NCBI GenBank assembly: GCA_022539475.1
Contig: VCMS01000016.1
Location: 412,291-476,290 of the forward strand
Length of the DNA stretch: 64,000 bases
Direction of reading: 5' to 3'
Source: Gracilaria domingensis
Taxonomy: Eukaryota > Rhodophyta > Florideophyceae > Gracilariales > Gracilariaceae
The position numbers and the translations under genes were made by a program. Positions 11,027-58,867 of the stretch are shown piece by piece. Below the pieces are notes generated by a model. That model was not told where the DNA came from. It worked only from the letters and a program-made list of their open reading frames with translations, and made no database searches. Every line of letters starts with the position of its first letter. The stretch's first letter is position 1.

Positions 11027-11585
11027 TGAGGAACTCAAATGCTTGAGTTGCACAAGAAGGTAAAGGCTGTAGTGGAGTATTCTCAACACTCAACAGCGAG
11101 GGCGCCAGCGGAGACCGTGTAACCAAGTCTACAACGCTCGTCGGGACGCGTCCCGTACCGATCACAGGCGGAGTTCGGGTACTCGACGCCTGGAGTATAC
11201 TCACGGGTGAGACAGAACTCAAACCCGGAAACAAGAAACAAGAAGAAGATGCAGCGAGTAAAGAGTAATCCGTCTCCTGCGACCCTAGGGGTCCGAACCT
11301 CTGGTCCCTGGTTACTCTCTCCAGGTGAGATGCGAATTCTTCTTGACCTACCCTGCTCTGCGCACTTCAGAGCGAGGGGCTTTACAATCCCTACGAGACG
11401 TCCCAGGGAGGGTAATGACAAACGCGATATGCCTATCCCAAGTTAGCCCCTGCTAGTCGCTTGCGGGAAATCAGCGTGGTCCTTCTGCTCGCTCGCTCGC
11501 AACGCGTACCTGTCGCAGAAAACAAACTTCTTAGAATACAAAAGAGATATTAGTAGAAGAGCGTGACGTCTGCGATGAGTCGACG
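11027..11585 (-). other. Family B' 5' leader (partial)
   Basis: Antisense copy of the B leader also seen at 43003-43550 and 48955-49613. Contains a GCGA-type simple repeat near 11489-11503 and a variant of the structured module at ~11277-11470, in which the last hairpin has diverged. Cut on the left by the A1 LTR. No coding sequence. Confidence 0.8.
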
Positions 11586-24734: not shown

Positions 24735-25144
24735 AGCGTACCTCGGTTTGTCATAGTACCTGCAGTTTCAGGGTCGCGCAAGTTCTTGCAAGAGACCAGA
24801 GAGGGTTTTACTTGGTGAAGGCATATCTTCGGTCACTAACCATCCTCTGGAAGTCTCGTAGAGAGCGACGCACCTTCTCCTAGAACGCAGGAGGAGGTAG
24901 ACTGCAGAACTCGTTTCTTACCCGGAGAGTCTCCGGGGGTCAGGGGTCCGACTCCCTAGGGTACCAGGAATTTTAGTTCCTTTTGCACCCGACTATTCCT
25001 CTTTATTGTGGTTGTTGTTTGTTGTTATTGTTGTTTGTTGTTGTTTGTTGTTGTTGTTTGCTGTTGTTGTTTACCGCTGTTGTTTGCTATTGCCGCCTGT
25101 CTGCCACCGCATTATCTGGTTCGCTGCAGTTCCTCTCTTACATC
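24735..25144 (+). other. Family A2 leader, 3' part, with structured module
   Basis: Begins at AGCGTACCTCGG inside the leader. The structured module is at 24772-24993 in its A2 form, ending ...TTTTGCACCCGAC. A TTG-rich simple repeat follows at ~25012-25090. The gag start ATG is at 25145. An in-frame ATG at 24983 would add 54 Leu/Val/Cys-rich residues from the simple repeat; I take 25145 because all copies share MDS at that point. Confidence 0.82.
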
Positions 25145-27073
25145 ATGGACTCGTTTAGTGGGCTCAAGATCGAGAAGTTGGGTGAGGATAACTTCCATAC
25201 TTGGAAGCAGAAGATTCAGTATGTACTTGCACTGAAAGACCTCAAGAACCATCTCACCACTTCTGCACCCACGGATGAAGAGGAACTGGTAAAGTGGCAA
25301 ATCCGCGACGAAAGGGCCAGAGCTATCATTGGACTCACGCTTGCCGACGAGCACTTGGATCACATTCGAGACATCGAGACTGCTGCTGACGCATGGAAGG
25401 CCATTTGCAATGTGTTTCAACGTAAGACTCTTCTTAACCGAATCAACGCCAGACGTGCTTTCTACTCTGTCAAGATGCGCGAGGACGAGAAGATGTTGCA
25501 ATTCATCAATCGTGTTCGGCACTTGGCCTCCGACCTCAAGAGTATGGACGTCAACGTTGAAGAAGAGGACATTGCTATGGCTGCTCTATGTGGACTTCCG
25601 GATCGTTTTGAGCACCTCATTGTTGCAATTGACACCACGATCGGAGATCGCCAACTCACTATGGAGTTTGTGAAGAGCCGTTTATTGCAAGAAGAGCAAC
25701 GTATGAGTGATCGTGCCAAGGAGGAGTCCGGTGTTGATGCAGCACTCGTGGGACGCCAGTTTCGTAGGAAGTCATTGAAGTCGGTTGTGTGTTACTATTG
25801 TGGCATAAAGGGTCATATCCAGAAGAACTGTTTCAAAAAGAAACGTGATGGGGCTAACAAGGATCAGATCGATGCTGCTCACCCAAGTGTACATACCGCG
25901 CTCAACAATGAGCAAGGTACGGGCGGCAGCGATTCTGACTTTGTATGCCTCATTGCGAATGGTGCGGACAAGGCCACTAACAGTGACTGGATTGTTGACT
26001 CTGGAGCTACTGCGCACATGACTTATGATGACTCAATGTTCCAAACGTACGAGACAAAGGTGTCGTCGGGTGTGAGTATCGGCAATGATTCCAAGTTGCA
26101 GTCTGTTGGTCACGGAAGTGTGGAGCTCGATCTGATAGTTGAAGGGTCCAAGCGTAAGTGCAAGCTAAAGCAGGTGGTACACGTGCTCACCTCACGGTAC
26201 CACTTGTTATCTGTGTCACAGATATGTGATCTGGGCTGCACGGTAGTGTTTGACAAAGAAAAGGTATGTGTGTACAAGGGGTCAAAAGTGGTTGCCGTCG
26301 GGCGCCGCGTCAAAGACCTGTACTACCTTTGCACTGCTGCAGATCAGTTCACGGACACGGACAGTGCGCTTGTGTTAGACTTGTCTCTCTGGCATGCTCG
26401 AATGGCTCATGTGAATGTGGAAGGCATCAAGCAGATGGCTCGAAACGGTGTTGTGTCAGGTCTGAATGTGGATGTGGCTCAGAAGCTGGATGTGTGTGGC
26501 TCTTGTGTAGTGGGCAAAGCAACCCGTGCTCCGACTCCCAAGCAAGGGGGGGAACGAGCTGAACACGTACTGGACCTGGTACACTCTGATATATCGGGTC
26601 CAGTGAACGTGAAGTGCTTGGGAGGCTCGCACTACTTTGTCACATTCATCGATGACCACAGCCGCTACTGCTTCTTGTACATGCTCAAGACGAAGGATGA
26701 GGTGTTCCGGATGTTCATCAAGTGGCTCAGGTTTGTGGAGAACCAGATGGGCAGGAAAGTGTTAACCATCACCGCTCGCAAGAGTGTGTTGCGTGCATTA
26801 CGCACTGACAATGGTGGTGAGTACTTGTCCAATCGGTTCTCCGAAAAGCTTGAGCAGTACGGTATTGAGCATCAGCGAACTGTGCCTTATAATCCACAGC
26901 AGAACGGGCTTGCCGAGAGGTTCAACCGCACACTCATGGACTTGGTCAGGTCAATGTTGCATCACAAAAATGTGCCAAAAAGCTTTGGGGCTGAGGCTCT
27001 GAATGTTTCTGTGTATGTGCGCAACAGAGTGACCTGCAAAGCGCTTCCGGGTAACGAAGCGTGCGCGGGTTAG
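25145..27073 (+). pseudogene. Family A2 gag-protease-integrase, 3'-truncated
   Basis: Starts MDSFSGLKIEKLGEDNFHTW. Gag (UBN2-like Copia capsid) spans ~1-210, the zinc knuckle CYYCGIKGHIQKNC ~215-228, the protease DSGATAHM ~283-290, the GAG-pre-integrase zinc finger (LWHARMAHV, VCGSCVVGKA) ~414-460, and integrase ~475-600 with D in VHSDISGP, D in LRTDNGGEY and E in NGLAERFNRT, i.e. all catalytic acids. Gag and pol are in one frame with no shift, as in many Copia elements. It is open until an antisense B LTR replaces the sequence at ~27052, adding a few LTR codons and TGA 27071-27073. FGAEALN has Gly where other copies have Trp. RT and RNase H are missing. Confidence 0.92.
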
Positions 27074-31739: not shown

Positions 31740-32516
31740 TGTTGGATGTTGAACTGTGCTGTCACTGAAAACCAAAAGTGCTGGAGAGCATGGGCTGTTT
31801 TGAAGGGTGCGGTTGGAAAAGCGCATATGCGCCTCTGCGCACACTCAACGTGAAACGGGCTTCTGATTGGCTACTGCAAATGGTCATATGCATTGTGGTT
31901 GGTACAAGTGTTGTGGCGCTAATGGGTTGTTTCCGGGCTACACGTGTGTTGCTAGTACACTGGGCATACTGTACATGATGCACAGAGTACACACGTATGT
32001 ACGTGGACATGTAGGACAGCTTGATGTAACTTGGGCACTATGGTGAAGAGTTGATGCGGTGTCAAGAGGATTACAGTGTGGTGTTGTTGGTGACGTAGGA
32101 CTTGGAGTGAGTTTGTGGTGAAGTGTTGTTGGTGAGCTTGTACGTAACTGTTATGGTGTGGTGTAGGGATTACAGTGTGTTGGCACTATGTGAATCTGTG
32201 CATGGTCATGGTCATGTGTAGGCACGTAAGTTGTTGTGCACTGTTGTGCACTGTTGTGCTTTGTTGTTGTAAGCTGCCATGATAGTGTGGGAGTTTTACC
32301 ATGTTATGTTAGGAGATGATTGGTAGTATTGGGTGTCTCTAGCTAGTGGTTTAGGTATTGCTTGGAGTTGGAGGTTTGCGATGGTTGCGCAAAGTAGTTC
32401 TATATAAGCGGTGACTCGAGCACCTCCAAGTAAATTCCGAGCAAGAGCTGGCGAACTTCCTTTCATTCCCCCCATCCTTTCTCTCAACCTTCCCTTTCCA
32501 GCTATAACCTCCATCA
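31740..32516 (+). repeat. LTR A1, 5' LTR
   Basis: 777 bp. Contains GCGCATATGCGC (~31821-31832), the inverted CCAAT box (ATTGG ~31866), TATATAA (32401-32407) and the ends TGTTGGATG / CTCCATCA. Confidence 0.93.
32401..32407 (+). promoter_or_regulatory. TATA box of LTR A1
   Basis: TATATAA, ~110 bp before the LTR end, conserved in nearly all A LTRs. The conserved stretch CTCCAAGTAAATTCCGAG about 20-40 bp downstream is the likely start of R. Confidence 0.7.
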
Positions 32517-32530
32517 GGTTATGGGCCCAG
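32517..32530 (+). promoter_or_regulatory. Primer binding site
   Basis: GGTTATGGGCCCAG, next base C; 14-15 bases complementary to the initiator tRNA-Met anticodon arm. Confidence 0.9.
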
Positions 32531-33755
32531 CCCCGCTGACCTCTGCCGTTATCGTTCGTCTATCGCCGCTCTCCCTCACCGCCGTTAACCCGCTTCGCTG
32601 TTTTCCCTTCTCTCTCCTTTCGTCGTTGCGTCGGGTGTGTTGACCGTGTTGTTGGTTGGTGTTGATCTTCTCCTTTCGGTCTTGCGTTCCTCCCTGAGGG
32701 CGTTGTGGTGGTAGTGGTTCGACGTTGATTCTGTATCGTTATTGTGTTTGGGCGCTCGTTGTTGCCCGTGTTGTCGATCGCTATCCGTTTCGTTTGGTCT
32801 CCCTCTGTCGTTATTGTTGGGATCCCCGCGTCGTCTTGCGGTTTCTGATCCGAGAGGTTGAGGACCGTTCGTTGTTGAAGTCTGTGCACTGCGTGTGTGC
32901 TCAGCAGTTGTTGAAGTCTGTGCACTGTGTGTGCTCAGCGTTAGGGGTTGTCATCTGAGGTCCAGCGTAAAGCGGTTGATCCGAGCAGTCGGGGACGTTA
33001 GTCTGGCGGCTTGAACCAAAGCGGACGTGCTGTCTAGCGGGCTCCCACCGGTCTTTCGGGGCGGATAACGGTGTTGGTCGGAAGACCTGGTAGTACCGCG
33101 AGTGCTGAAGTGGACGGGGTGCCGTGACGCACTGTTGGACTTGGGTGGCTCACCTTTGTTGTTGTTGACCTGACTTTGTGTCGGGTTCTTGATCTGTGGT
33201 GAAGGCAAACCGAAACGAGCTTTTGATCCGTGCAACCTCGGTTGAGCGGGGAGGCGACGTACCGAAGGCTGACCTCCTTTTCAGGATCAGGCCGCGTGTG
33301 GGCATTATTGTCTGCTCGTTAGGAGCGTACCTTGGTTTGTCATAGTAGCTGCAGTTTCGAGGTCGCGCAAGTTCTTGCAAGAGGCCAGATTGGGTTAAGT
33401 GGTGAAGACATATCTTTGGTCATTAACCATCCTTTGGACGCCTCGTAGAGAGCAACGCGCCTTCTCCTGGAACGCAGGAGGAGGTAGACTGCAGAAGTCT
33501 TCTCCTACCCGGAGGGTCTCCGGGGGTCAGGGGTCCGACCCCCTAGGGTACTGGGAATTTAGTTCCTGCCAGTGGTCCCGACTATTGAAGTTCTTGTTGT
33601 TGTTGTTTTTGTTGTTGTTGTTTGCCGTTGTTGTTGTTTGCTGTTGTTGTTGTTTGCTGCTGTTGTTTGCTGTCGTTGTTTGCTGTCGTTGTTTGCCCTT
33701 CATGTCTACCCGCCACCGCCGTATTTGATTTGCTCCCCTGTTCCCTTCTTACAAC
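32531..33755 (+). other. Family A1 5' leader, complete
   Basis: 1,225 bp without gag-like coding. Order: CT-rich GC-rich start; a ~34-bp unit (GTTGAAGTCTGTGCACTG...) twice at ~32873-32940; a conserved middle (to ~33300); the structured module (33361-33582); and a TTG-rich simple repeat (~33594-33700). Several short upstream ATGs are present, so ordinary scanning to gag at 33756 would be hindered. Confidence 0.85.
33361..33582 (+). other. Candidate structured leader RNA, A1 form
   Basis: Helices visible by eye: CTCCTG/CAGGAG around loop GAACG (33464-33480); CCCGGAG/CTCCGGG (33508-33524); GGGGT/ACCCC around CCG (33530-33542); GGAA/TTCC around TTTAG within CTGG/CCAG (33551-33572). Upstream is the conserved loop ATATCTTTG closed by GAC/GTC. 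The same order recurs in B (43138-43351) and C (58014-58238) with paired base changes. Other A copies: 51314-51535 (+), 24772-24993 (+), 40363-40585 (-), 47113-47333 (-), 2120-2342 (-). Function unknown: packaging, dimerisation, internal ribosome entry or self-cleavage are possible. I see no known ribozyme core. Confidence 0.65.
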
Positions 33756-35384
33756 ATGGATTCGTTCAGTGGGCTCAAGATCAAGAAGTTGGGTGAGGAT
33801 AACTTCCACACATGGAAGCAGAGGATTCAGTACGTACTTGCACTGAAGGACCTCAAGAACCATCTCACCACTTCTGCACCCACCGGTGAAGAGGAACTGG
33901 TAAAATGGCAAATCCGAGACGAAAGGGCTAGAGCGATCATTGGACTCACGCTTGCCGACGAGCACTTGGATCACATTCGTGACATTGACACTGCTGCTGA
34001 CGCATGGAAGGCCATTTGCAATGTGTTCCAACGCAAGACTCTTCTGAACCGAATCAACGCCAGACGTGCCTTCTACTCTGTCAAGATGCGCGAGGACGAG
34101 AAGATGTTACAATTCATCAATCGTGTTCGGCACTTGGCCTCCGATCTCAAGAGTATGGACGTCAACGTTGAAGAAGAGGACATTGCCATGGCCGCTCTAT
34201 GTGGACTTCCGGAACGTTTTGAGCACCTCATTGTTGCAATTGACACCACGATCGGAGATCGCCAACTCACCATGGCGTTTGTGAAGAGCCGTCTGTTGCA
34301 AGAAGAGCAACGTATGAGTGATCGTGCCAAGGAGGAATCTGGTGGTGATGCAGCACTCGTGGGACGCCAGTTTCGTAGGAAGTCATTGAAGTCGGTTGTG
34401 TGTTACTATTGTGGCATAAAAGGTCATATCCAGAAGAACTGTTTCAAGAAGCAACGTGATGGGGCTAACAAGGATCAGATCGATGCTGCTCACCCAAGTG
34501 TACATACCGCGCTCAAAAATGAGCAAGGTACGGGCGGCAGCGATTCTGACTTTGTATACCTCATTGCAAATGGTGCCGACAAGGCCACTAACAGTGACTG
34601 GATTGTTGACTCTGGAGCTACTGCGCACATGACTTATGATGACTCAATGTTCCAAACGTACGAGACAAAGGTGTCGTCGGGTGTGAGTATCGGCAATGAT
34701 TCCAAGTTGCAGTCTGTTGGTCACGGAAGTGTGGAGCTCGATCTGACAGTTGAAGGGTCCAAGCGTAAATGCAAGCTAAAGCAGGTGGTACACGTGCCCA
34801 ACTTACGGTACCACTTGTTGTCTGTGTCACAGATATGTGATCTGGGCTGCACGGTAGTGTTTGACAAAGAAAAGGTATGTGTGTACAAGGGGTCAAAAGT
34901 GGTTGCCGTCGGGCGACGCGTCAAAGACCTGCACTACCTTTGCACTGCTGCAGAACAGCTCACGGACACGGACAGTGCGCTTGTGTCAGACTTGTCTCTT
35001 TGGCATGCTCGAATGGCTCATGTGAATGTGGAAGGCATCAAGCAGATGGCTCGAAACGGCGTTGTGTCAGGTCTGAATGTGGATGTGGTTCAGAAGGCGG
35101 ATGTGTGTGGCTCATGTGTAGTGGGCAAAGCAACCGGTGCTCCGACTCCCAAGCAAAGGAGGGAACGAGCTGAACACGTACTGGACCTGGTACACTCCGA
35201 TATTTCGGGTCCAGTGAACGTGAAGTCCTTGGGAGGCTCGCACTACTTTGTCACATTCATCGATGACCACAGCCGTTACTGCTTTCTGTACATGCTCAAG
35301 ACTAAGGATGAGGTGTTCCGGATGTTCATCAAGTGGGGCTCAGGTTTGTGGAGAACCAGATGGGCAGGAAGTGATCGAGGTTGA
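33756..35384 (+). pseudogene. Family A1 gag-protease-integrase, truncated
   Basis: Starts MDSFSGLKIKKLGEDNFHTW. Gag spans ~1-210, zinc knuckle CYYCGIKGHIQKNC at ~215, protease DSGATAHM at ~283, GAG-pre-integrase zinc finger at ~414-460, and the start of integrase with the first catalytic D (VHSDISGP) and the FIDDHSRYCFLY segment. At MFIKW two extra G residues shift the frame (GTGGGGCTCAGG against GTGGCTCAGG elsewhere). About 35 bases later an antisense A2 LTR begins (35372), so the remaining catalytic residues, RT and RNase H are lost. Otherwise gag, protease and zinc finger are undamaged. The tail to TGA 35384 is LTR sequence. Confidence 0.9.
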
Positions 35385-36157
35385 AGCTAAAAGGGAAGGT
35401 TGAAGAAAGGATGGGGGAATGAAGGGAAGTTCGCCAGCTCTGGCTCGGAATTTACTTGGAGGCGCTCGAGTCACCGCTTATATAGAACTACTTTGCGCAA
35501 CCATCGCACAACTCCAACTCCAAGCAATACCTAAACCACTAGCTAGAGACACTCAATACTACCAATCATCTTCTAACATAACATGGTAACACTGCCACAC
35601 TATCATGACAGCTTACAACAACAAAGCACAACAACGCACAACAGTGCACAACCGTGCACATCAAGTTACGTGCCTACACATAACCATGACCATGCACAGA
35701 TTCACATAGTGCCAACACACTGTAATCCGTACACGCCACCATAACAGTTACGTACAAGCTCACCAACTAACACGTCACCACAAACTCACTCCAAGTCCTA
35801 CGTAACCAACAATACCACAGTGTAAACCTCTTGACAACGCATCTACTCTTCACCATAGTGCCAAAGTCACATCAAGCAGTCCTACATGTCCACGTACATA
35901 CGTGTGTACCCTGTGCATCATGTACAGCATGCCCAGTGTATTAGCTACACACGTGTACCCTGGAAACAACCCATTAGCGCCACAACACTTGTACGAACCA
36001 CAATGCATATGACCATTTGCAGTAGCCAATCAGAAGCCCGTTTCACGTTGAGTTTGCGCAGAGGCGCATATGCGCTTTTCCAACGGCACCCTCCAAAACA
36101 GCCCATGCTCCCCAGCACTTTTGGTTTTCATTGGCAGCACAGGGTCAACATCCAACA
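35372..36157 (-). repeat. LTR A2, 3' LTR
   Basis: 786 bp; TATA (TTATATA on the plus strand) at 35478-35484. Its 3' end is joined to plus-strand A1 integrase at 35371. Confidence 0.93.
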
Positions 36158-36172
36158 CCCCCCCTCTGTCAC
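36158..36172 (-). promoter_or_regulatory. Polypurine tract
   Basis: Plus strand CCCCCCCCTCTGTCAC, i.e. a G run directly before the LTR on the minus strand. Confidence 0.75.
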
Positions 36173-36177
36173 TGACT

Positions 36178-39100
36178 TCAAACTTCTATGTGAATCACAC
36201 CACCGGCTTCGCGAAACCTCTCGTGCTTCACTCGCGCAAGCGGCTTATTCAGCATGTCGGCAACCAAGGAATCCGTCGGGCAGTAGAACAGCACAATCGA
36301 CTTGGCCTGCAGAGCTTCTCGAGTGAAGTGGAACCGAATTTCAATATGCTTGGTTCGCCTGTTCACCACTCCATTTCGAGCAAGGTCAATGCTGCCCTGG
36401 TTGTCAACATACATGGGAGTTGGTTCAACCAGCAGCTTTACAGACCCGTCTGTTTCCATGCCAATCACACTGCCAATGCCGTTCCAAAGTCGCCTAAGCC
36501 AGATCGCCTCCTTGGTGCCAGAGCACAAGCTCACGTACTCAGCCTCTGCACTCGACAGAGCAACTACCTCCTGTTGACGAGACGACCACGACACAGCACC
36601 ACCGCACATCATGAACAAGTATCAGCTAGTGGACTTGCGGTTGGCAACATCGCCAGCCCAGTCAGAGCCCACATAGCCGTGCAGTTGCAAATCGGTGCTG
36701 GAGCCATACGTCAACCCGAACGTGGTAGTGCCATTGAGGTAGCGAAGAACACGCTTGACCGCCTTCCAGTGAGTGTTTCCCGGCTTCTTAACATACTTGG
36801 CCAGCTTAGCCACAGCATATGAGATGTCTGGACGAGTTCCCACAGAGAGATACATGAGGCAGCCAATCGCCTGACGATACGGTACATGCGTGAGCACTTC
36901 CTCCTCAACAGACAAGTCCACACCACACTCCATAGGAGTGTCAACGGGTTTCGACAGCTGCATGCCAAATCGCTCCAGGACCTTGTTCGTGTACGCTGAC
37001 TGAGTCAAGTACAGCTCTCGCTTGGTTCTGTCTCAATGGATTTCAAATCCAAGAACCATGCGAGCTTCTTTGAAATCCTTCATGCGGAAACGACTTGACA
37101 GCTCTGCCTTCACACGTTCCACGGTTTTCATGCTCGGACTCGCAATCAGCAAGTCGTCAACATACAGAGTAATGATAACCAAGAAACCTAGTATGATCCC
37201 GGTGTAGACACACTCGTCTGCGTCATTCGGCTTGAGGTGCATTTCACCAACAAGGAAGGCGTATATCTTGGCGTGCCACTGTCTTGGTGCTTGTCTAAGC
37301 CCATAGATCGCTTTCTTCAGTCGGCACACCAAGTCCTCCTTTCTCTGCTGTGTGAATCCCATTGGCTGCTCCATGTACACTGTCTCGTCAAGGTCACCGT
37401 TCAGAAAGGCAGTCTTCACATCCATCTGGTGCAAGTGGAAGTCTCGTACGGCAGTCACTGACAGGATCATTCTGATGGATGTGAACTTCACCACAGGTGC
37501 ATATGTCTCTGAGAAGTCCACACCCTCGATCTGCAGGAAGCCTCTTGCAACTACACGAGCCTTGTAACGCACTGTCGGTTCACCAGATGACGAAGCCTCA
37601 TACTTCTGTACATGCACCCACTTGGACGAAATCACGTTGCTGTCTGCTGGCCTTGGCACTAGATCTCATGTGTCATGCTCCATCAATGACTCGTACTCAC
37701 TCTTCATCGCCTTCTTCCAAGCTTCGGAATCAGGACGTGACACTGCGTCACCGTACGACGAAGGAGTATCATCACTGGCTGTAAGCAAAGCACTGGCACC
37801 ACGCCACCATGAGGATGTCGTTTTTCTCTGACGTGTGGGTCTACGAAGGGGCTGCGTCTCTGTCACTCCCGGCTCATCATGTGTGTCTGGTGTGGTGTTC
37901 TCATCCGTACTGGCATTCGTGGTATTCTCATGAGAAGCTGGTGCAGAAGGATCATCTTCAGAATGATCGGCGGATGTGTCGGAGGTTGAGGCTTCAGCAG
38001 ATACCGACTTGTCTACCAAGTCGATATCCGCATAGTCCTCGTGTTCAGAGTGCTCGTCACTTTCAGTTCCAGAGCACTCGTCAAACCTCACATCTCGTGA
38101 CACAATCACCTTCTTCTTCTGGCTGTCCCACAACTTGTACCCGTGGGAGCCTGAAGTGTACCCAATGAAGATGGCTTCCACTGCACGCTCTTCCAGCTTC
38201 TTCAACTTGTGATCAACCACCTTGTACCAGCAACGGCTACCAAACACACGCAGATTGCTCAGATCAGGCTTCTGTCCATGCCACAGCTCAAACGGCGTCA
38301 CGTCACTCGGAAGCGCTTTGCAGGCCACTCTGTTGCGCACATACACAGAGACATTCAGAGCCTCAGCCCAAAAGCTTTTTGGCACATTCTTGTGATGCAA
38401 CATTGACCTGACCAAGTCCATGAGTGTGCGGTTGAACCTCTCGGCTAGCCCGTTCTGCTGTGGATTGTAAGGCACAGTTCGCTGATGCTCAATACCGTAC
38501 TGCTCAAGCTTTTCGGAGAACCGATTGAACAAGTACTCACCACTATTGTCAGTGCGCAATGCACGCAACACACTCTTGCGAGCGGTGATGGTTAACACTT
38601 TCCTGCCCATCTGGTTCTCCACAAACCTGAGCCACTTGATGAACATCCGGAACACCTCATCCTTCGTCGTGATCATGTACAAGAAGCAGTAGCGGCTGTG
38701 GTCATCGATGAATGTGACAAAGTAGTGCGAGCCTCCCAAGGACTTCACGTTCACTGGACCCGATATATCAGAGTGTACCAGGTCCAGTACGTGTTCAGCT
38801 CGTTCCCCCCTTTGCTTGGGAGTCGGAGCACGCGTTGCTTTGCCCACTACACATGAGCCACAAACATCCACCTTCTGAGCCACATCCACATTCAGACCTG
38901 ACACAACACCATTTCGAGCCATCTGCTTGATGCCTTCCACATTCACATGAGCCATTCGAGCATGCCAAAGAGACAAGTCTGACACAAGCGCACCGTCCGT
39001 ATCCGTGAACTCATCTGCAGCAGTGCAAAGGTAGTACAGGTCTTTGACGCGGCGCCCAACGGCAACCACTTTTGACCCCTTGTACGCACATACCTTTTCT

Positions 39101-40212
39101 TTGTCAAACACTACCGTGCAGCCCAGATCACATATCTGTGACACAGACAACAAGTGGTACCGTAAGTTGGGCACGTGTACCACCTGCTTTAGCTTGCACT
39201 TACGCTTGGACCCTTCAACTGTCAGATCGAGCTCCACACTTCCGTGACCAACAGACTGCAACTTGGAATCATTGCCGATACTCACACCCGACGACACCTT
39301 TGTCTCGTACGTTTGGAACATTGAGTCATCATAAGTCATGTGCGCAGTAGCTCCAGAGTCAACAATCCAGTCACTGTTAGTGGCCTTGTCGGCACCATTC
39401 GCAATGAGGCATACAAAGTCAGAATCGCTGCCGCCCGTACCTTGCTCATTTTTGAGCGCGGTATGTACACTTGGGTGAGCAGCATCGATCTGATCCTTGT
39501 TAGCCCCATCACGTTGCTTTTTGAAACAGTTCTTCTGGATATGACCCTTTATGCCATAATAGTAACACACAACCGACTTCAATGACTTCCTACGAAACTG
39601 GCGTCCCACGAGTACAGCATCACTACCGGACTCCTCCTTGGCACGATCACTCATACGTTGCTCTTCTTGCAACAAACGGCTCTTCACAAACTCCATGGTG
39701 AGTTGGCGATCTCCGATCGTGGTGTCAATTGCAACAATGAGGTGCTCAAAACGTTCCGGAAGTCCACATAGAGCGGCCATGGCAATGTCCTTTTCTTCAA
39801 CGTTGACGTCCATACTCTTGAGGTCGGAGGCCAAGTGCCGAACACGATTGATGAATTGCAACATCTTCTCGTCCTCGCGCATTTTGACAGAGTAGAAAGC
39901 ACGTCTAGCGTTGATTCGGTTAAGAAGAGTCTTACGTTGAAACACATTGCAAATGGCCTTCCATGCGTCAGCAGCAGTCTCGATGTCACGAATGTGATCC
40001 AAGTGCTCGTCGGCAAGCGTGAGTCCAATGATAGCGCTAGCCCTTTCGTCGCGGATTTGCGACTTTACCAGTTCCTCTTCATCCGTGGGTGCAGAAGTGG
40101 TGAGATGGTTCTTGAGGTCTTTCAGTGCAAGTACATACTGAATCTTCTGCTTCCAAGTATGGAAGTTATCCTCACCCAACTTCTCGATCTTGAGCCCACT
40201 AAACGAGTCCAT
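36178..40212 (-). pseudogene. Family A2 gag-pol, complete length with three TGA stops
   Basis: One frame of ~1,345 codons from MDSFSGLKIEKL (ATG at 40210-40212) to HIEV. Stops: TGA 37666-37668 (Trp in HDTWDLVP), TGA 37033-37035 (CGA to TGA after GFEIH) and TGA 36622-36624 (GGA to TGA in STSGYLF). Domains in order are gag, zinc knuckle, protease DSGATAHM, GAG-pre-integrase, integrase, acidic linker, RT (YVDDLLIA) and RNase H. Two functional sites are damaged: the knuckle reads CYYYGIKGHIQKNC (second Cys to Tyr), and the integrase motif reads TDNSGEYLF. Several of these are G-to-A or C-to-T changes. An upstream in-frame ATG at 40372 adds 54 simple-repeat residues; I prefer 40212. Without the stops this would be a full polyprotein. 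Confidence 0.93.
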
Positions 40213-41444
40213 GATGTAAGAGAGGAACTGCAGCGAACCAGATAATGCGGTGGCAGACAGGCGGCAATAGCAAACGACAGCGGTAGACAACAACAGCAAA
40301 CAACAACAGCAAACAACAGCAAACAACAATAACAACAAACAACAACAACAATAAAGATGAATAGTCGGGTGCAAAAGGAACTAAGATTCCTGGTACCCTA
40401 GGGAGTCGGACCCCTGACCCCCGGAGACTCTCCGGGTAAGAAACGACTTCTGCAGTCTACCTCCTCCTGCGTTCTAGGAGAAGGTGCGTCGCTCTCTACG
40501 AGACTTCCAGAGGATGGTTAATGACCGAAGATATGCCTTCACCAAGTAAAACCCTCTCTGGTCTCTTGCAAGAACTTGCGTGACCCTGGAACTGCAGGTA
40601 CTATGACAAACCGAGGTACGCTTCTAGCAAGCAAACAATGAAGTTCACAAGCGGCCTGATCCTAAAAAGGAGGTCAGCCTACGACACGTCGCCTCCCCGC
40701 ACCACCGAAGCAGTACGGATCAAAAGCTCGTTTCAGTTTGCCTTCGCCACAGATCAAGAACCCAACACAAAGTCAGGTCAGCAACAATAAAGGTGGACCA
40801 CCTCCTGTCCAGTGCAGTACGTCACGGCACCCCGTCCACAAATGCCCCCGCGAAGAATACCAGGTCTTTCGACCGACACCGTTATCTGCCCCTAAGGACC
40901 GGTGGGAAACTCGCAAGACGGAACAAATGCTTTGGTTCAAGCCGCCAGACTAACGTCCTCGATTGCTCGGATCAACCGCTCGTCGCACCGAAACTCAAGT
41001 GATCACCACACCTGCCGAGCACACACGCAGTGCACGGACTTCAACAGAAACGAATGCTGAGCACAACACACAAGTGCACAGACTTCAACACCACAAGGTC
41101 CTCAACCTCTCGGATCAGAACCCACAAAGACGACGTGGGGATCCCAACAATAATAACAGAGGGAGACCAAACGAAGCGGATAGCGATCGACAACACGGGC
41201 AACAACGAGCGCCCAAACACAATCACGATAGAAAGTCAACGTCGAACCACCACCAACAAAACGCCCTCAGGGAGGAACGGACGACCGAAAGAAGAAAGTC
41301 AACACCGACCAACGATACGGTCAACACACCCGACGCAACAGAGAAGGGAACGAAAGGGAAAACAGCGAAGCGGATGAACGGCGGTGAGGGAGAGCGGCGA
41401 GAATCAGCGGCGAGAGGGAACGATAACGGCAGAGGTCAGCGGGG
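40213..41444 (-). other. Family A2 5' leader, complete
   Basis: 1,232 bp; TTG-rich simple repeat (~40255-40355 antisense), structured module in A2 form (40363-40585), then the conserved middle and GC-rich start. Only short frames such as 40963-41490 occur, none resembling a protein. Confidence 0.82.
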
Positions 41445-41458
41445 CTGGGCCCATAACC
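41445..41458 (-). promoter_or_regulatory. Primer binding site
   Basis: Minus strand GGTTATGGGCCCAG, adjoining the 5' LTR. Confidence 0.9.
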
Positions 41459-42244
41459 TGATAGAGGTTGAACCTGAAAGGGAAGGTTGAAGAAAGGATA
41501 AGGGAATGAAGGGAAGTTCGCCAGCTCTGGCTCGGAATTTACTTGGAGGCGCTCGAGTCACCGCTTATATAGAACTACTTTGCGCAACCATCGCAAACCT
41601 CCAGCTCCAAGGAAAACCTAAGCCACTAGCTAGAGACACTCAATACTACCAATCATCTTCTAACATAACATGGTAACACTGCCACACTATCATGACAGCT
41701 TACGACAACAAAGCACAACAACGCACAACAGTGCACAACCGTGCACATCAAGTTACGTGCCTACACATAACCATGACCATGCACAGATTCACATAATGCC
41801 AACACACTGTAATCCGTACACGCCACCATAACAGTTACGTACAAGCTCACCAACTAACACGTCACCACAAACTCACTCCAAGTCCTACGTAACCAACAAT
41901 ACCACAGTGTAAACCTCTTGACAACGCATCTACTCTTCACCATAGTGCCAAAGTCACATCAAGCAGTCCTACATGTCCACGTACATACGTGTGTACCCTG
42001 TGCATCATGTACAGCATGCCCAGTGTATTAGCTACACACGTGTACCCTGGAAACAACCCATTAGCGCCACAACACTTGTACGAACCACAATGCATATGAC
42101 CATTTGCAGTAGCCAATCAGAAGCCCGTTTCACGTTGAGTTTGCGCAGAGGCGCATATGCGCTTTTCCAACGGCACCCTCCAAAACAGCCCATGCTCCCC
42201 AGCACTTTTGGTTTTCTGTGACAGCACAGGGTCAACATGCAACA
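41459..42244 (-). repeat. LTR A2, 5' LTR
   Basis: 786 bp; TTATATA at 41565-41571; first bases TGTTGCATG instead of TGTTGGATG. Followed by 15 bp (42245-42259) of unassigned sequence and then LTR B. Confidence 0.92.
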
Positions 42245-42259
42245 CATAGTTTACCAAAC

Positions 42260-42988
42260 TGTTGATATTTGGATGGGGTCGAGTGCCTGGCAGTCCTTCA
42301 ATGTGTCTCCAACTACCTGGAACACAAAGTTGCAGGGAAGCATGGGCACTTTTGGGCACCCTCGTGCGAAAAGCGCTTATGCGCCTCTCCGAAAACCCAA
42401 CGTGATACTGCAATATGATTGGCTACTGCAAATGCGTGTATGCAACGTAGTATAGACAAGTTTGCCTGGCTGTATGGGCCAGGAGTGGCGGATGCTACAA
42501 GTGGTGCGCTGCGATTGGCTGAAGTGTGCTAGTGCTGGCAAGTTATGCAGTAGCTGAGAATGTGCGAATAGAGGCTGTTCTGGGCGGGTTTTGCTTTATG
42601 TGCGATTCTAGGCTAGTACGAAGGGTTTTGGAGCGAATGTGCGATTCTGAGCTGCGCGAGGGGGTTTGTTGCGCCAGATGGAAATTGTTGACTTTTTAGA
42701 GCGATTTATGGATCATGGAGTTGGCATTGGATTTGGCGCGGTTTGATTTAGTTGTTTTGAATTCGTATTGTGATTTGCGCGCGCTTTCGTTGTCGAGGTG
42801 TACACTTTGACAGCGTGTGCTGTTATGTCGCATGCAGCGACGGCGGCGGTGCGCGGCTAGTACTAGTAGGTTGCGATCGTCCCCGATCACTAACCTCGGT
42901 CGAAGGTGGCCTACTCCCTTTGTTTGTTTTACCCATCTTGTTCACATTTTTCTCACTTCCCTTCGTCTAACCTGCTCGCCTTGCGTTA
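42260..42988 (+). repeat. LTR B, 5' LTR
   Basis: 729 bp, TGTTGATA...GCGTTA. GCGCATATGCGC is altered to GCGCTTATGCGC. The AATAAA position reads ACTAAC. Confidence 0.9.
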
Positions 42989-43002
42989 GGATATGGGCCC
43001 AG
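42989..43002 (+). promoter_or_regulatory. Primer binding site, one mismatch
   Basis: GGATATGGGCCCAG, one base different from the other copies. Confidence 0.85.
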
Positions 43003-43550
43003 AGCGTCGACTCTTCGCAGACGTCACGCTCTTCTACTGATTTCTCTATTGGATTCTACGAAGTTTTGTTTTCTTCCGACAGGTACGCGTTGCGAGCGAG
43101 CGAGCGAGCGAGCGAGCAGAAGGACCGCGCTGATTTCCCGCAAGCAACTAGCAGGGGCTAACTGGTGAACGCATATCTTTGGCTACGAACCTCCCTGGGA
43201 CGTCTCGTAGGGATTGTAAAGCCCCTCGCTCTGAAGTACGCAGAACAGGGTAGGTCAAGAAGAACTCGTGCCTCACCTGGAGAGAGTAACCAGGGACCAG
43301 AGGTTCGGACCTCTAGGGTAACCGGATATTAGATCCTGCCAGTGGACCCGCTTCTTCTTCTTCTTCTTTTTCTTTCCGGGTTGAGTTCTGTCTCACCCGT
43401 GAGTATACTCCAGGCGTCGAGTACCCGAACTCCGCCTGTGATCGCGTACGGGACGAGTCCCGACGAGCGTTGTACACCTGGTTACACGGTCTCCGTTGGC
43501 GCCCTCGCTGTTGAGGGTTGAGAATACTCCACTCCAGTCTTTACCCTCTT
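43003..43550 (+). other. Family B 5' leader
   Basis: Contains the GCGA repeat (~43096-43119), the structured module (43138-43351), a TTC repeat (~43351-43372) and ~180 bp more, then breaks into antisense A pol. No gag is reached. Confidence 0.85.
43138..43351 (+). other. Candidate structured leader RNA, B form
   Basis: Same order of elements as in A with different helix sequences: GCTCTG/CAGAAC with loop AAGTACG (43228-43246); CCTGG/CCAGG (43276-43294); AGAGGT/ACCTCT around TCGG (43299-43314); GGAT/ATCC around ATTAG (43324-43336). Unpaired blocks GGTGAAC, CATATCTTTGG, GGACGTCTCGTAG, CTAGGGTA and CCTGCCAGTGG are nearly identical to A. The antisense B copy at 49264-49479 agrees; B' (11277-11470) is diverged. 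Confidence 0.65.
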
Positions 43551-46932: not shown

Positions 46933-48162
46933 GTTGTAAGAAGGGAACAGGGGAGCAAATCAAATACGGCGGTGGCGGGTAGACAGCAACGGCAAACAAC
47001 GACAGCAAGCAACGACAGCAAACAACAGCAGTAAACAACAGCAGCAAACAACAACAACTGCAAACAACAACAACGGCAAACAACAACAACAACAACAACA
47101 AAAACTTCAATAGTCGGGACCACTGGCAGGAACTAAATTCCCAGTACCCTAAGGGGTCAAACCCCTGACCCCCGGACACCCTCCGGGTAGGAAACGACTT
47201 ATGCAGTCAACCTCCTCCTGCGTTCCAGGAGAAGGCGCGTTGCTCTCTACGAGGCGTCCAAAGGATGGTTAATGACCAAAGATATGTCTTCACCACTTAA
47301 CCCAATCTGGCCTCTTGCAAGAACTTGCGCGACATCGAAACTGCAGCTACTATGACAAACCAAGGTACGCTCCTAACGAGCAGACAATAATGCCCACACG
47401 CGGCCTGATCCTGAAAAGGAGGTCAGCTTTCGGTACGTCGCCTCCCCGCTCAACCGAGGTTGCACGGATCAAAAGCTCGTTTCGGTTTGCCTTCACCACA
47501 AATCAAGAACCCGACACAAAGTCAGGCCAACAACAACAAAGGTGAGCCACCCAAGTCCAACAGTGCGTCACGGCACCCCGTCCACTTCAGCACTCGCGGT
47601 ACTACCAGGTCTTCCGACCGACACCGTTATCCGCCCCGAAGGACTGGTGGGAGCCCGCTAGACAGCACGTCCGCTTTGGTTCAAGCCGCCAGACTAACGT
47701 CCCCGATTGCTCGGATCAACCGCTTGTCGCTGGACCTTAGATGACAACCCCAAACGCTGAGCACACACAGTGCACAGACTTCAACAACTGCTGAGCACAC
47801 ACGCAGTTCACAGACTTCAACAACAAATGGTCTTCAACCTCTCGGATCAGAACCCGCAACGCGACGCGGGGATCCCAACAATAACGACAGAGGGAGACCA
47901 AACGAAACAGATAGCGATCGACAACACGGGCAACAACGAGCGCCCAAAGACGATAACGATACAGAATCAACGTCGAACCACTACCAACACAACGCCCTCA
48001 GGGAGGAACGCAAGACCGAAAGGAGAAGATCAACCCCAACCAACAACACGGTCAACACCCGACGCAACGACGAAGAGAACGAGAATGCAAAACAGCGAAG
48101 CGGGTGAACGGCAGTGAGGGAGAGCGGCGATAGACGAACGATAACGGCAGAGGTCAGCGGGG
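46933..48162 (-). other. Family A1 5' leader, complete
   Basis: 1,230 bp; simple repeat ~46985-47103, structured module 47113-47333, conserved middle, twofold ~34-bp repeat at ~47755-47825, GC-rich start. Confidence 0.83.
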
Positions 48163-48954: not shown

Positions 48955-49613
48955 AATACAACCAGATCCAGGAAACCAAGTAGAAAACCAAAGAGGGAAA
49001 CACAAAAGTAGCTTTGACAAACAACAATACAAGCAGAGTGAGGGACTCAATGCTTATGTTACACAAAGAGGGTAAAGGCTGGAGTGGAGTATTCACAACA
49101 CTCAACAGCGAGGGCGCCAGCGGAGACCGTGTAACCAGGTCTACAACGCTCGTCGGGACGCGTCCCGTACGCGATCACAGGCGGAGTTCGGGTACTCGAC
49201 GCCTGGAGTATACTCACGGGTGAGACAGAACTCAACCCGGAAACAAGAAGAAGAAGAAGAAGAAGCGGGTCCACTGGCAGGATCTAAATATCCGGTTACC
49301 CTAGAGGTCCGAACCTCTGGTCCCTGGTTACTCTCTCTAGGTGAGGCACGAGTTCTTCTTGACCTACCCTGCTCTGCGTACTTCAGAGCGAGGCGCTTTA
49401 CAATCCCTACGAGACGTCCCAGGGAGGTTAGTAGCCAAAGATATGCGTTCACCAGTTAGCCCTAGCTAGTCGCTTGCGGGAAATCAGCGCGGTCCTTCTG
49501 CTCGCTCGCTCGCTCGCTCGCTTGCAACGCGTACCTGTCGCAGATAAGAAAACTTCGTAGAATCCAAAAGAGAAATTAGTAGAAGAGCGTGACGTCTGCG
49601 AAGAGTCGACGCT
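48955..49613 (-). other. Family B 5' leader, antisense
   Basis: Longest B leader here (659 bp). Holds a GAA repeat (~49244-49265), the structured module (49264-49479) and the GCGA repeat (~49499-49523). Its gag side is cut by the A1 LTR at 48954, so B gag is never seen in the window. Confidence 0.83.
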
Positions 49614-50517: not shown

Positions 50518-51702
50518 CCCCGCTGACCTCTGCCGTTACCGTTCGTCTATCGCCGCTCTCCCTCACCGCCGTTCACCCGCTTCGCTGTTTTCCTTTCTCG
50601 TTCTCTTCGTCGTTGCGTCGGGTGTGTTGACCGTGTTGTTGGTTGATGTTGATCTTCTCCTTTCGGTCTTGCGTTCCTCCCGGAGGGCGTTGTGGTGGTA
50701 GTGGTTCGACGTTGATTCTGTATCGTGATTGTGTTTGGGCGCTCGTTGTTGCCCGTGTTGTCGATCGCTATCCGTTTCGTTTGGTCTCCCTCTGTCGTTA
50801 TTGTTGGGATCCCCGCGTCGTGTTGCGGGTTCTAATCCGAGAGGTTGAGGACCATTTGTTGTTGAAGTCTGTGAACTGCGTGTGTGCTCAGCGTTTGGGG
50901 TTGTCATCTGAGGTCCAGCGACAAGCGGGTGATCCGAGCAATCGGGGACGTTAGTCTGGCGGCTTGAACCAAAGCGGACGTGCTGTCTAGCGGGCTCCCA
51001 CCGGTCCTTCGGGGCGGATAACGGTGTCGGTCGGAAGACCTGGTAGTACCGCGAGTGCTGAAGTGGACGGGGTGCCGTGACGCACTGTTGGACTTGGGTG
51101 GCTCACCTTTGTTGTTGTTGACCTGACTTTGTGTCGGGTTCTTGATCTGTGGTGAAGGCAAACCGAAACGAGCTTTTGATCCGTGCAACCTCGGTTGAGC
51201 GGGGAGGCGACGTACCGAAGGCTGACCTCCTTTTCAGGATCAGGCCGCGTGTGGGCATTATTGTTTGCTCGTTAGGAGCGTACCTTGGTTTGTCATAGTA
51301 GCTGCAGTTTCGAGGTCGCGCAAGTTCTTGCAAGAGGCCAGATTGGGTTAAGTGGTGAAGACATATCTTTGGTCATTAACCATCCTTTGGACGCCTCGTA
51401 GAGAGCAACGCGCCTTCTCCTGGAACGCAGGAGGAGGTAGACTGCAGAAGTCGTTTCCTACCCGGAGGGTCTCCGGGGGTCAGGGGTCCGATCCCCTAGG
51501 GTACTGGAAATTTAGTTCCTGCCAGTGGTCCCGACTATTGAAGTTTTTGTTGTTGTTGTTGTTGTTGTTTGCCGTTGTTGTTGTTTGCTGTTGTTATGGT
51601 TTGCTGTTGTTGTTTGCTGTCGTTGTTTGCTGTCGTTGTTTGCCGTTGCTCTCTACCCGCCACCGCCGTATTTGATTTGCTCCCCTGTTCCCTTCTTACA
51701 AC
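50518..51702 (+). other. Family A1 5' leader, complete
   Basis: 1,185 bp. The ~34-bp unit is present only once (~50855-50891), which explains most of its shorter length against 32531-33755. Structured module at 51314-51535, simple repeat ~51545-51640. Confidence 0.83.
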
Positions 51703-56139: not shown

Positions 56140-57134
56140 TGTTGGAAGTCATGCTGTCACTGACATCAAGCAGTTGAGATGTGTGGAGTCTAGAATGGTA
56201 CCTTGATACGTGAAACCGAGATTGATGTTGTTCTGTTTGGTATACTACGTTGCTGTGTGGTATACTCAGTATGGGTAGAACGTTTATGGCTACACTGGAA
56301 CGCTATCGTTCAGCTGGGATGACCACAAGGTACAACGATGACAGGTTGTACAGTGGACATGAAGTACAGGGTTGAAGGCTATGTATGTGCACACAAGGTA
56401 CAGGTGGCAGCACTGTCAGTGTTGTGAAGTTTACACCATGTTTGAGTTGTGCTACATGCAAATGTGTGTGTATGGATGAATGGAACATGTTGCAGCTAAG
56501 TGACTGACGTCATGTGGTTTACAGGTACTTGTTGATGATGTGGGACTTGGGTATCTGGCACGTACACATTACGGTGTGGTGTACAGATTACAGCGTGCCA
56601 GCAACACACGTGAAGTGTGATGTGATGTTCCGTAAGCATGGCTGGTCATGATGGTGAGGTCTTGCATTGTGTGTATGCATGGTCGTGTTACTATGGTGGG
56701 CTGTCATATTGTTGACTGCGTTGATGTGTGGTGCTCGTGGTGTGCTGTAGAAATGTGTCGGTACACTGTCAGGGACGTGCATGGCTACTACATTGGTGTG
56801 CATTGTTGTGCATTGTTGTGCAATGCTGTGCAGTAGTGTACGGAATTGTTGTGCACTGTTGTACACTGTTGTGCGTTGTTGTGCACTGCTGTTGTAAGCA
56901 GTTTGGCACTGTTACCATGTTATGTCTGTAGATGATTGGTAGTATTGAGTGTCTCTGGTTAGTGAGTTGCATGTTGGTCAGAGTTGGAGTCCCATGATGG
57001 AGTAGCGAAGAAGTGCTATATAGGTTGTGACTCAAGCACCTCCAAGTAAATCTGAGCCAGAGCTGGCGAACTTCCCTTGCATCCCCCCATCCTTCCTCAT
57101 GTCAACTTTCCGATCCCAGCTATAACCTCTAACA
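56140..57134 (+). repeat. LTR C, 5' LTR
   Basis: 995 bp, TGTTGGAAG...CTCTAACA, followed by the primer site. The last ~330 bp resemble LTR A (GTGTCTCT, TATATA, CTCCAAGTAAAT, CCAGAGCTGGCGAACTTCCC). U3 is different, rich in GTTGTGCA repeats, and lacks GCGCATATGCGC. Confidence 0.9.
57017..57022 (+). promoter_or_regulatory. TATA box of LTR C
   Basis: TATATA at the place corresponding to the A TATA box. Confidence 0.65.
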
Positions 57135-57148
57135 GGTTATGGGCCCAG
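57135..57148 (+). promoter_or_regulatory. Primer binding site
   Basis: GGTTATGGGCCCAG after LTR C. Confidence 0.9.
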
Positions 57149-58257
57149 CCCCGCAGACCTCTGCCGTTTGTCGTTCGTCATGAGGTTTCCCTTTCCGCCG
57201 CTCTCCCTCACCGCCGTCCGTGTTGTTGAACGCCGTTGTTGATGTTTTCGATGTTTTTTCTCCGTCGTGTTTCTTGTCATTGACCGGTTTGGTGGTGTTG
57301 TATTTCCCTTTTGGTTTGCGTTCCTCCCTGAGGGCGTTGTGGTGGTAGTGGCTCGACGCTGTTCTACTTTCGTGATTCTGTTTAGTTTCTAGTTCATTTT
57401 CGTTTTCGTCGATCGCTATCCGCTTTGTTGGTTTCTCGCCTCTGTTTTCGTTGTTGTGATCCCCGTGTCGTGTTTGCGGGTTCTGATCCGAGGGGTTGAG
57501 TACCGTTGTCGTTGAAGTCTGTGCACTTGTGTGTTGTGCTCAGCATTCGTTTTTTCGTTGAATTCCGGGCACTGCCTGTGTGCTCGGCATTTGTGGTGAT
57601 CACTTGGGTTTCGGTGCGACGAGCGGTTGATCCGAGCAATCGGAGACGTTAGTCTGGCGGCTTGAACCAATTCGGACGCGCTGTCGAGCGGGCTCCCACC
57701 GGTCCTTCGGGGCAGATAACGGTGTCGGTCGGAAGACCTGGTAGTACCGCGAGTGCTGAAGTTGACGGGGTGCCGTGACGTACTGCATCGAACAGGGGTG
57801 GTTCACCTTTGTTGTGTGTGACCTGACTGTGTGTTGGGTTCTTGATCTGTTGGGAAGACAAACTGAAACGAGCTTTTGATCCGTACTGCTGCGGTGGTGC
57901 GGGGAGGCGACGTGTCGTAGGCTGACCTCCTTTTCAGGATCAGGTCGCTTGTGAACTTGATTGTTTGCTTGCTGGAAGCGTACCTCGGTTTGTCATAGTA
58001 CCTGCAGTATCAGGGTCGCGCAAGTCCTTGCAAGAGACCAGAGAGGGTTTAACTTGGTGAAGGCATATCTTTGGTCACTAACCATCCTCTGGACGTCTCG
58101 TAGAGAGCGACGCGCTTTCTCCTGGAACGCAGGAGGAGGTAGATAGAAGAAAGTCGTTTCCTACCCGGAGGGTCTCCGGGGGTCAGGGGTCCGACTCCCT
58201 AGGGTGCCAGGAATCTTAGTTCCTTATGCATCCGATCGCTTGCAGTTTGTTGTTGTT
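57149..58257 (+). other. Family C 5' leader
   Basis: Collinear with the A leader throughout: GC-rich start, two diverged ~34-bp units (~57505-57590), conserved middle, structured module (58014-58238). No gag start follows; the leader runs into repeat-rich sequence. Confidence 0.82.
58014..58238 (+). other. Candidate structured leader RNA, C form
   Basis: Closest to the A2 form. CTCCTG/CAGGAG and CCCGGAG/CTCCGGG are kept, GGGGT/ACTCC is kept by a G-U pair, and AGGAA/TTCCT replaces GGAA/TTCC. The loop ATATCTTTG is closed by GGC/GTC. The partial antisense copy at 63838-64000 agrees. Confidence 0.65.
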
Positions 58258-58867
58258 ATTCTCGCTACAGTTCAGGAGGTGGAGTGTTTCCTACCTGAGA
58301 CTGTGTGTGTGAGATTCGTTTATGACACTTCCTGGGTGTTTGTTGTTGAACATGTCTGAGCTCTTCTTTGTATCAACTTTGGAAAGTTGCGATGTTACTT
58401 GTCCGTTGTTATCGTGACTTCCTTACGCAGGCTCAGAAGGTTGTCGTTATGTATGCCCGGGATTTGTGCTGTGCTCTTCGTTTTACTTCTGTTGTACCGG
58501 AAGGTTGCTATTTGGTTGCATGTCCGCTGTGTATGGAAGAGCTGTTTGACTCAGGAGGTTGAGTGTTTCATGCCTGAGTGTATTATTGATCACTTGTGAT
58601 GTGTGTTTTGCTCTCCATGTTGTTCTCATGTTACCAGAAGGTTGTTACATGTATGCATGTCCTGGGTATGGAAGAGCTGTTTGACTCAGGAGGTTGGGTG
58701 TTTCATGCCTGAGTGTATTATTGATCACTTGTGATGTGTGTTTTGCTCTCCATGTTGTTCTCATGTTACCAGAAGGTTGTTACATGTATGCATGTCCTGG
58801 TTATGGAAGAGCTGTTCGATTTAGGAGGTTGATTGTTTCATGCCTGAGTGTTTGTTTCATTGCTTGT
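58258..58867 (+). repeat. Family C interior with 135-bp tandem repeat
   Basis: Non-coding in all frames beyond ~70 codons. Units at 58531-58665 and 58666-58800 are nearly identical; a partial diverged unit is at 58801-58867. Each has AGAAGGTTG, CATGTCC, GGAAGAGCTGTTTGACTC, CAGGAGGTTG and TTTCATGCCTGAGTGT. Older copies of the same motifs lie at 58378-58530 and antisense at 63050-63720. Confidence 0.82.

Follow-up and report, generated by a model that had tools for sequence, protein, structure and literature searches.

The window examined here is a 64,000-nucleotide stretch of the red alga Gracilaria domingensis (G000:C16:412291-476290, in a genome of 77.9 Mb and 680 contigs); it forms the end of a contig, and much of it consists of nested LTR retrotransposons. 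The 18S gene of this genome (L128) bears strings typical of red algae. Element A opens with a 5′ LTR (TG...CA) at 31740–32516 on the + strand, delimited by repeat boundaries and sequence and furnished with a TATA-like TATATAA at 32401. The adjoining primer-binding site (PBS), GGTTATGGGCCCAG (32517–32530, +), holds an ATG and recurs with the same 14 letters in family C; we take it to be complementary to the anticodon arm of the initiator tRNA-Met. The gag start and open frame of A (33756–35381, +; Retrotran_gag_2, Pol_BBD and gag_pre-integrs) is interrupted by another element, and a protein search with the gag start returns 69 relatives, the best at 59% identity. The LTR of family B (42254–42988, +, from repeat boundaries) is followed by the PBS GGATATGGGCCCAGAGC from 42989. 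Both A and B carry Retrotran_gag_2, and RVT_2 is found in two other open reading frames of the window, which marks these elements as Ty1/copia. The PBSs of A, B (42989–43005) and C (57135–57148) all pair with the initiator tRNA anticodon arm and for that reason carry an ATG; half-tRNA priming of this kind is found in Drosophila copia.

The leader of A is 1.24 kb long. It contains a structured RNA (33361–33582, +) that begins ~0.84 kb after the LTR and stops 173 nt short of the gag ATG, defined by alignment and scoring 102.7 bits over its 5′ part against a covariance model. The sequence-only reading had placed the same segment in the leaders of B (43138–43351, +) and C (58014–58238, +), and the three segments do lie at these places and can be aligned. 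A folded RNA is present in the 5′ leaders of all three Ty1/copia families. Two amendments are needed: C has no gag for its leader to precede, and the extent proposed was too narrow, since a Ty3/gypsy family, H, and an upstream block at 33044–33110 had been missed.

The 5′ part of the RNA, the rod (33361–33456, +), is common to copia A–E and B and to gypsy H. It is a single long irregular hairpin of stacked helices, in the order b (UUCUU/GAGAG), a (GAGGC/GCCUC), d (GGG/UCC), s (UGGU/ACCA) and t (GAC/GUC), with an internal loop GCAA/GUAG between b and a and the apical loop AUAUCUUUG. The stretch GGACGYCTCGTAG had been assigned to the single-stranded blocks; in fact its GYCTC pairs with an upstream GAGRC in a covarying helix. 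An alternative apical pairing, GAAGA/UCUUY, is disfavoured, partly by eye, because it sets C against C at one pair in B and because GAC/GUC covaries. Hairpin e (33460–33484, +; CCTTCTCCTG/CAGGAGGAGG, as RNA CCUUCUCCUG/CAGGAGGAGG) shows five double changes relative to gypsy H. The 3′ domain (33485–33582, +), common to copia A–E and B and, by eye, not seen in H, comprises a long-range helix GACU/GGUC (GGUC/GACC in B), the hairpins CCCGG/CCGGG and AGGGG/CCCCU, and a last stem. Block 1 (33044–33110, +), common to A, C, D, E and H, lies ~250–320 nt upstream of the rod and is part of the same RNA in A and C. Its CACCG/CGGUG stem (33046–33073), with a UUCG hairpin and a GGAUAA bulge, is followed by a GNRA-capped hairpin, GGTC-GNRA-GACC (33076–33087), whose tetraloop is GGAA in the A copy described here (A33) and GAGA in the H locus L101. 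Block 1 was not found in B, where the best 12-mer carries four mismatches.

Ten copies in the window score 70.7–102.7 bits against the rod model, and the next best match reaches 18.9 bits. Further A rods lie at 51315–51409 (+) and 47239–47333 (−), both at 102.7 bits, and a further B rod at 49399–49493 (−, 96.3 bits). Subfamily D is represented by rods at 24773–24869 (+, 89.9 bits), with gag following at 25145, and at 40488–40584 (−, 88.4 bits), within the element at 35372–42245. The rod of G, a B-like copy, occupies 11383–11480 (−, 70.7 bits), and a C-like copy recognised by alignment is cut by the contig end (63780–64000, −). The subfamily E copy (rod at 2246–2340, −) is decayed: gag matches occur in broken pieces, and among nine pairs changed relative to A33 two are kept and seven broken. 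In the autonomous D copy at 24773 six pairs are changed and four of them kept; in the C copy at 58014, 10 of 51 are changed, with seven kept and three broken.

The paired changes named in the sequence-only reading are present: CCCGG/CCGGG against CCTGG/CCAGG, GGGGT/ACCCC against GAGGT/ACCTC, GGAA/TTCC against GGAT/ATCC, the C–G to U–A change in the CTCCTG/CAGGAG hairpin, and the loop-closing stem that appears as GAC/GTC, GGC/GTC or GC/GC. Over 51 pairs in ten window copies (types A, B, C, D, E and G), 93.9% of cells are paired, against 59.7% in the best slid register, and 29 cells carry double changes, against a shuffled mean of 11.5; none of 500 shuffles reaches this number. The count of pairs with a double change is 11, against 8.8 when shuffled (68/500), and further pair types number 26, fewer than the shuffled 31.0. 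A second test used the 20 rod pairs in 16 sequences of A–E, B and H. Here 92.1% of cells are paired (shuffled 85.4%, slid registers ≤59.2%) and 30 show double changes (shuffled 11.6), neither value being reached in 500 shuffles; the six pairs with double changes, against 4.9 (145/500), are unexceptional by themselves, and the 15 further pair types are fewer than the shuffled 17.4. Standard pairs are more numerous on the sense strand, on which the structure was drawn, than on the antisense strand in nine of the ten copies, with one tie, as expected for an RNA with G–U pairs.

A and B are 68.5% identical over 197 nt, and between A33 and the B copy at 49399, 50 usable pairs divide into 32 unchanged, three kept with one side changed, 11 kept with both sides changed and four broken. 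Between A33 and H (L101), 43 pairs in nine helices divide into 28, three, 12 and none, with a permuted mean of 1.0 double changes (p≤2e-5). Because the alignment of hairpin e rests on its own pairing, it was left out in one test, and the remaining 33 pairs still show seven double changes and none broken (p≤2e-5); block 1 alone shows two in 13 (p=0.006). Over 30 shared pairs A and B have six double changes kept and five pairs broken, and B and H five and five. In all these comparisons the structure was proposed from the very sequences compared, and each of only three deep lineages is represented by one member. The proposal of selection on RNA shape is supported by double changes above shuffled or permuted expectation, both among the copia copies and between A and H, and these alignments strongly support the prediction that the leader RNA is a folded structure. 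Thermodynamic stability is weak support for the fold (minimum free energy z: A −2.17, C −1.99, B +0.10). Free minimum-energy folds contain 20/30 (A), 10/30 (H) and 14/25 (B) of the proposed pairs, and RNAalifold applied to 21 H copies alone, many of which look decayed, gives a fold that disagrees with the cross-family helices.

Family H is a Ty3/gypsy family by its domains (RVT_1, RT_RNaseH and Integrase_H2C2; best PDB match Ty3 Gag-Pol, 2.1e-91), and both blocks lie inside its LTR in the same order as in A. The LTR is ~1058 bp long, many of the 40 scored copies ending near query positions 76 and 1133. The RNA of H is downstream of a TATA-like box, inside the LTR and upstream of the PBS, whereas in A, B and C it is downstream of the PBS. 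In H no ATG intervenes between L101:1090 and that of gag, which lies ~12 nt short of the LTR end, and a PBS-like TGG follows the LTR; the gag ATG is thus within the LTR and the PBS-like sequence within gag (L101:1821, L103:69). No Pfam family matches the gag start of H, and the Gag of A finds no match by tblastn in the H pieces read. Block 1 of H is 80–87.5% identical over 48–49 nt to six window copies (83% to A33), and its rod is 75% identical over 73 nt to A and 77% to B. A, B and H are about equally distant from one another, and so H does not have the appearance of a recent capture from A or B. A hairpin at L101:1569-1587 has a nine-nucleotide loop, GAATTCGCG, with a six-nucleotide palindrome, like a dimer-initiation loop; by eye, GAATTC is found in a hairpin loop of H only, and no self-complementary loop of this kind is seen in A, B or C. 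One H LTR copy (G000:C20:113948-114679) lacks ~327 nt holding the rod and keeps block 1.

Many of the exact genome matches listed for GGACGYCTCGTAG lie outside A, B and C. With up to one mismatch allowed the pattern shows no enrichment, giving 361 matches against 461 for the reversed control, so only exact matches are informative, and all places listed are exact. Among 20 places hand-picked for lying apart from the A, B and C copies already known, 19 are RNA copies (13 H, three B-like and three C-like) and one is a chance match. The block 1 pattern with up to two mismatches gives 291 genome matches, against 41 for the reversed control; three of four places read are RNA copies and the fourth is a chance match. 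By eye, the two matches read that lie outside elements (L085, L124) look like chance, L124 scoring 7 bits. The sequence-only reading recognised no known class in the RNA, and Rfam agrees: no Rfam family reaches its gathering cut-off anywhere in the 64-kb window, and scans of A, H and B stretches to E 10 give no IRES model and weak matches of other families only. Tymo_tRNA-like, the best structured match below threshold, was rejected, at 20.8 bits against a cut-off of 40 in A and absent from the H and B scans, and the Rfam searches find no 5S rRNA or tRNA homology in the leader RNA. Nor was a relative found with a DNA pattern in viral and genome contigs, with three proteins in viral contigs, or in a phage DNA search.

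Family C combines a 772-bp LTR (56363–57134, +, from repeat boundaries; PBS from 57135, with letters identical to those of A) and the RNA with a non-coding part (58239–58867, +, by ORF and repeat analysis) that includes a 135-bp tandem repeat in 2.6 copies at 58495–58851. The longest sense ATG open reading frame after the RNA is 56–109 aa at 20 loci, over 1366–1500 nt; in 16 of these loci shared C sequence extends for 1366 nt or more, and in the other four it breaks off at 234–641 nt. In one copy, C316, 1704 nt separate the RNA from a 772-bp 3′ LTR. The C leader occurs at 95–100% identity in at least 40 places, among them the one in the window (of 223 candidates, 40 were scored), which argues that C was recently mobile. 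Identity between A and C is 95.5% in block 1, 88.5% in the rod and 82% in the rest of the RNA, against 83% in the leader between the blocks and 76% in the PBS-side leader. By BLAST the homology ends at 33567/58224, that is, at the 3′ end of the RNA; beyond 33583 the alignment is reduced to 64 nt at 58%, interrupted by 109 gaps. With an LTR end, leader, blocks and RNA homologous to A and homology that stops at the 3′ end of the RNA, C has the look of a natural mini-element in which the cis-acting parts may have been kept. Its retention of the RNA speaks for a role played by that molecule itself. Since the leader of C outside the RNA is 76–83% identical to A, the stretch between the blocks scoring 83% against 82% for the 3′ part of the RNA, C could instead have inherited its leader passively.

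Upstream ATGs bear on how gag is reached. From its likely start to gag, A has two ATGs against 11.4 in dinucleotide shuffles (0/2000 as low): one that the initiator tRNA imposes on the PBS, and one at 33702. The H leader has none against 5.4 (2/2000). Depletion is weaker in C up to the RNA end (five against 10.9, 31/2000), and the B stretch tested, with one against 2.2 (591/2000), is not significantly depleted; after its RNA, C has 26 against 16.3 expected. As depletion extends upstream of the RNA, the pattern fits scanning from the cap and suggests that ribosomes may scan the leader in that way. The RNA might nevertheless serve ribosome entry or shunting to gag across the long structured leader. 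It ends ~173 (A), ~347 (B, locus L037, where gag, Retrotran_gag_2 at 3.2e-14, starts ~348 nt downstream of the RNA) and ~230 nt (H) before gag, with a U-rich tract after it; the interval to gag lacks ATGs in B (L035, L037) and H and has one in A (33702, an 8-codon uORF). The PBS ATG opens uORFs of 40 (A), 15 (B) and 14 (C) codons, and an element that meets host ribosomes could serve both superfamilies. Internal entry would leave upstream AUGs free of selection; they are instead scarcer than expected in the leaders of both A and H, upstream of the RNA as well. Moreover, C keeps the RNA without an open reading frame and has ATGs above expectation after it, no Rfam IRES matches, and no leader stretch is complementary to the 18S gene (L128) beyond shuffles. 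A translation element is thus improbable. The depletion in A and H, together with the ORF-less C, is why an IRES was rejected as first choice and why we favour a cis-acting RNA function over internal ribosome entry.

The function of the leader RNA we infer from its setting. Packaging and dimerisation are well-known roles of LTR-element leader RNAs. In A and H the RNA lies, as judged from sequence, after a TATA-like box and before gag, and compensatory change has kept it between the LTR promoter and gag in two lineages of copia and in a single gypsy family; its fold is conserved, and it is kept in mobile elements without genes. Our first choice, held tentatively and with slightly less than even confidence, is that the RNA acts in cis to pick out full-length element transcripts for mobilisation, packaging and dimerisation within Gag particles being the likeliest route. 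The rod and hairpins would be bound either by Gag or by a host partner that carries the RNA to Gag; two genomes would pair, and the RNA would enter the particle. Gag from autonomous A or D elements might serve C in trans. Template switching could have carried the module between copia and gypsy, or both could have kept it since an early exchange. Of the four roles suggested by the sequence-only reading, packaging and dimerisation remain, translation entry is disfavoured and cleavage finds no support. Against packaging, the position of the RNA in H, within the LTR and upstream of the PBS, differs from that in A, B and C; by eye, no palindromic loop is conserved across all families; and because the Gags of A and H show no match, the simplest reading would not be a single packaging signal serving the two.

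This last point keeps a host-factor element in play as a strong rival, if an unlikely one: the RNA would bind a host protein that exports intronless element RNA from the nucleus, stabilises it or directs its traffic, and any LTR element of the host would profit, whatever its Gag. The RNA transport element of IAP in mouse is an example, and it and the MPMV CTE are structured retroelement RNAs that use a host factor, similar in size to the leader RNA; the comparison was made by Rfam scans only. Occurrence in copia A, B and C and in gypsy H, whose Gags show no match, retention in the ORF-less C, and a placement relative to LTR and PBS that varies, as that of a host-read element may, all suit this explanation; it is weakened by the failure of any Rfam family to match and by the lack of a host gene with the RNA in the small sample of matches read. 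A self-cleaving ribozyme of a new class is barely credible: conserved unpaired stretches are present and retrozyme LTRs carry hammerheads, but no Rfam ribozyme family matches, no cleavage-site pattern was recognised, and a single copy between LTR and gag, as in A, would cut the genome. That an LTR or leader took up a host non-coding RNA gene is highly unlikely, in view of the lack of an Rfam match and, a weak test, of a single-copy host locus among the matches read; the RNA does, however, appear as a module in unrelated elements, and excerpts of PMC10886601 offer a precedent in Cassandra, Helenus and Ajax.

The 5′ cis-acting regions of Ty1 and Ty3, which serve dimerisation, packaging and priming, are likewise structured leaders adjoining LTR and PBS. 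We know of no leader RNA common to Ty1 and Ty3; here copia and gypsy have one in common, and in A it starts ~0.84 kb after the LTR. Among the top-ranked titles and abstracts of open-licence PMC papers on RNA structure in LTR elements, packaging, IRESs, export elements and red algae, none deals with an RNA common to copia and gypsy. Non-autonomous LTR elements of the LARD type consist of LTRs, PBS and a non-coding interior, as does C, which unlike them keeps a covarying RNA of its autonomous relatives. According to excerpts of PMC4974528, mini-Ty1 in its minimal form is reduced to 380 nt from the 5′ end and 357 nt from the 3′ end, only the ends being needed in cis; the engineered element thus resembles the natural C. 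Barley BARE2, in excerpts of PMC3735527, cannot make Gag and is yet packaged, with dimerisation and packaging signals kept, so that BARE1 and BARE2 parallel A and C as a case in which an element without Gag is mobilised and retains its cis signals. BARE2 differs in retaining possibly translatable sequence after gag, where C shows no coding sequence, and those excerpts describe no sharing across superfamilies such as that among A, C and H. Cassandra, Helenus and Ajax (TRIMp3) took up 5S rRNA or tRNA sequence and, like H, have folded RNA sequence within their LTRs (excerpts of PMC10886601); the present RNA matches neither 5S rRNA nor tRNA, and H has gag-pol domains of its own.

It is possible, though we consider it rather doubtful, that one RNA module circulates among copia, gypsy and gene-less LTR elements of a single host and is read by common machinery. 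A leader RNA through which genomes are chosen for packaging is, as a rule, particular to a single element. If the module does circulate, elements of different superfamilies would be packaged or trafficked together and could swap leaders, under a mobilisation code shared across LTR superfamilies. A covarying RNA in two superfamilies with unlike Gags and in a gene-less passenger would show cis signals moving as modules, and would give a rare handle on part-sharing among very distantly related jumping genes. Because C is naturally stripped of genes with the cis parts left, the trio of A, C and H makes the role of the leader directly testable.

Two minor features may be added. In the B leader, immediately 5′ of the RNA, a pyrimidine-rich tract (43040–43089) ends in CAG/G at 43082 and resembles a 3′ splice site. 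Elsewhere in the genome, evenly spaced copies occur five in a row at ~4009 bp (G000:C117:182995-199117) and three in a row at 6640 bp (G000:C52:96886-110178), a spacing that suggests tandem LTR–internal–LTR arrays.
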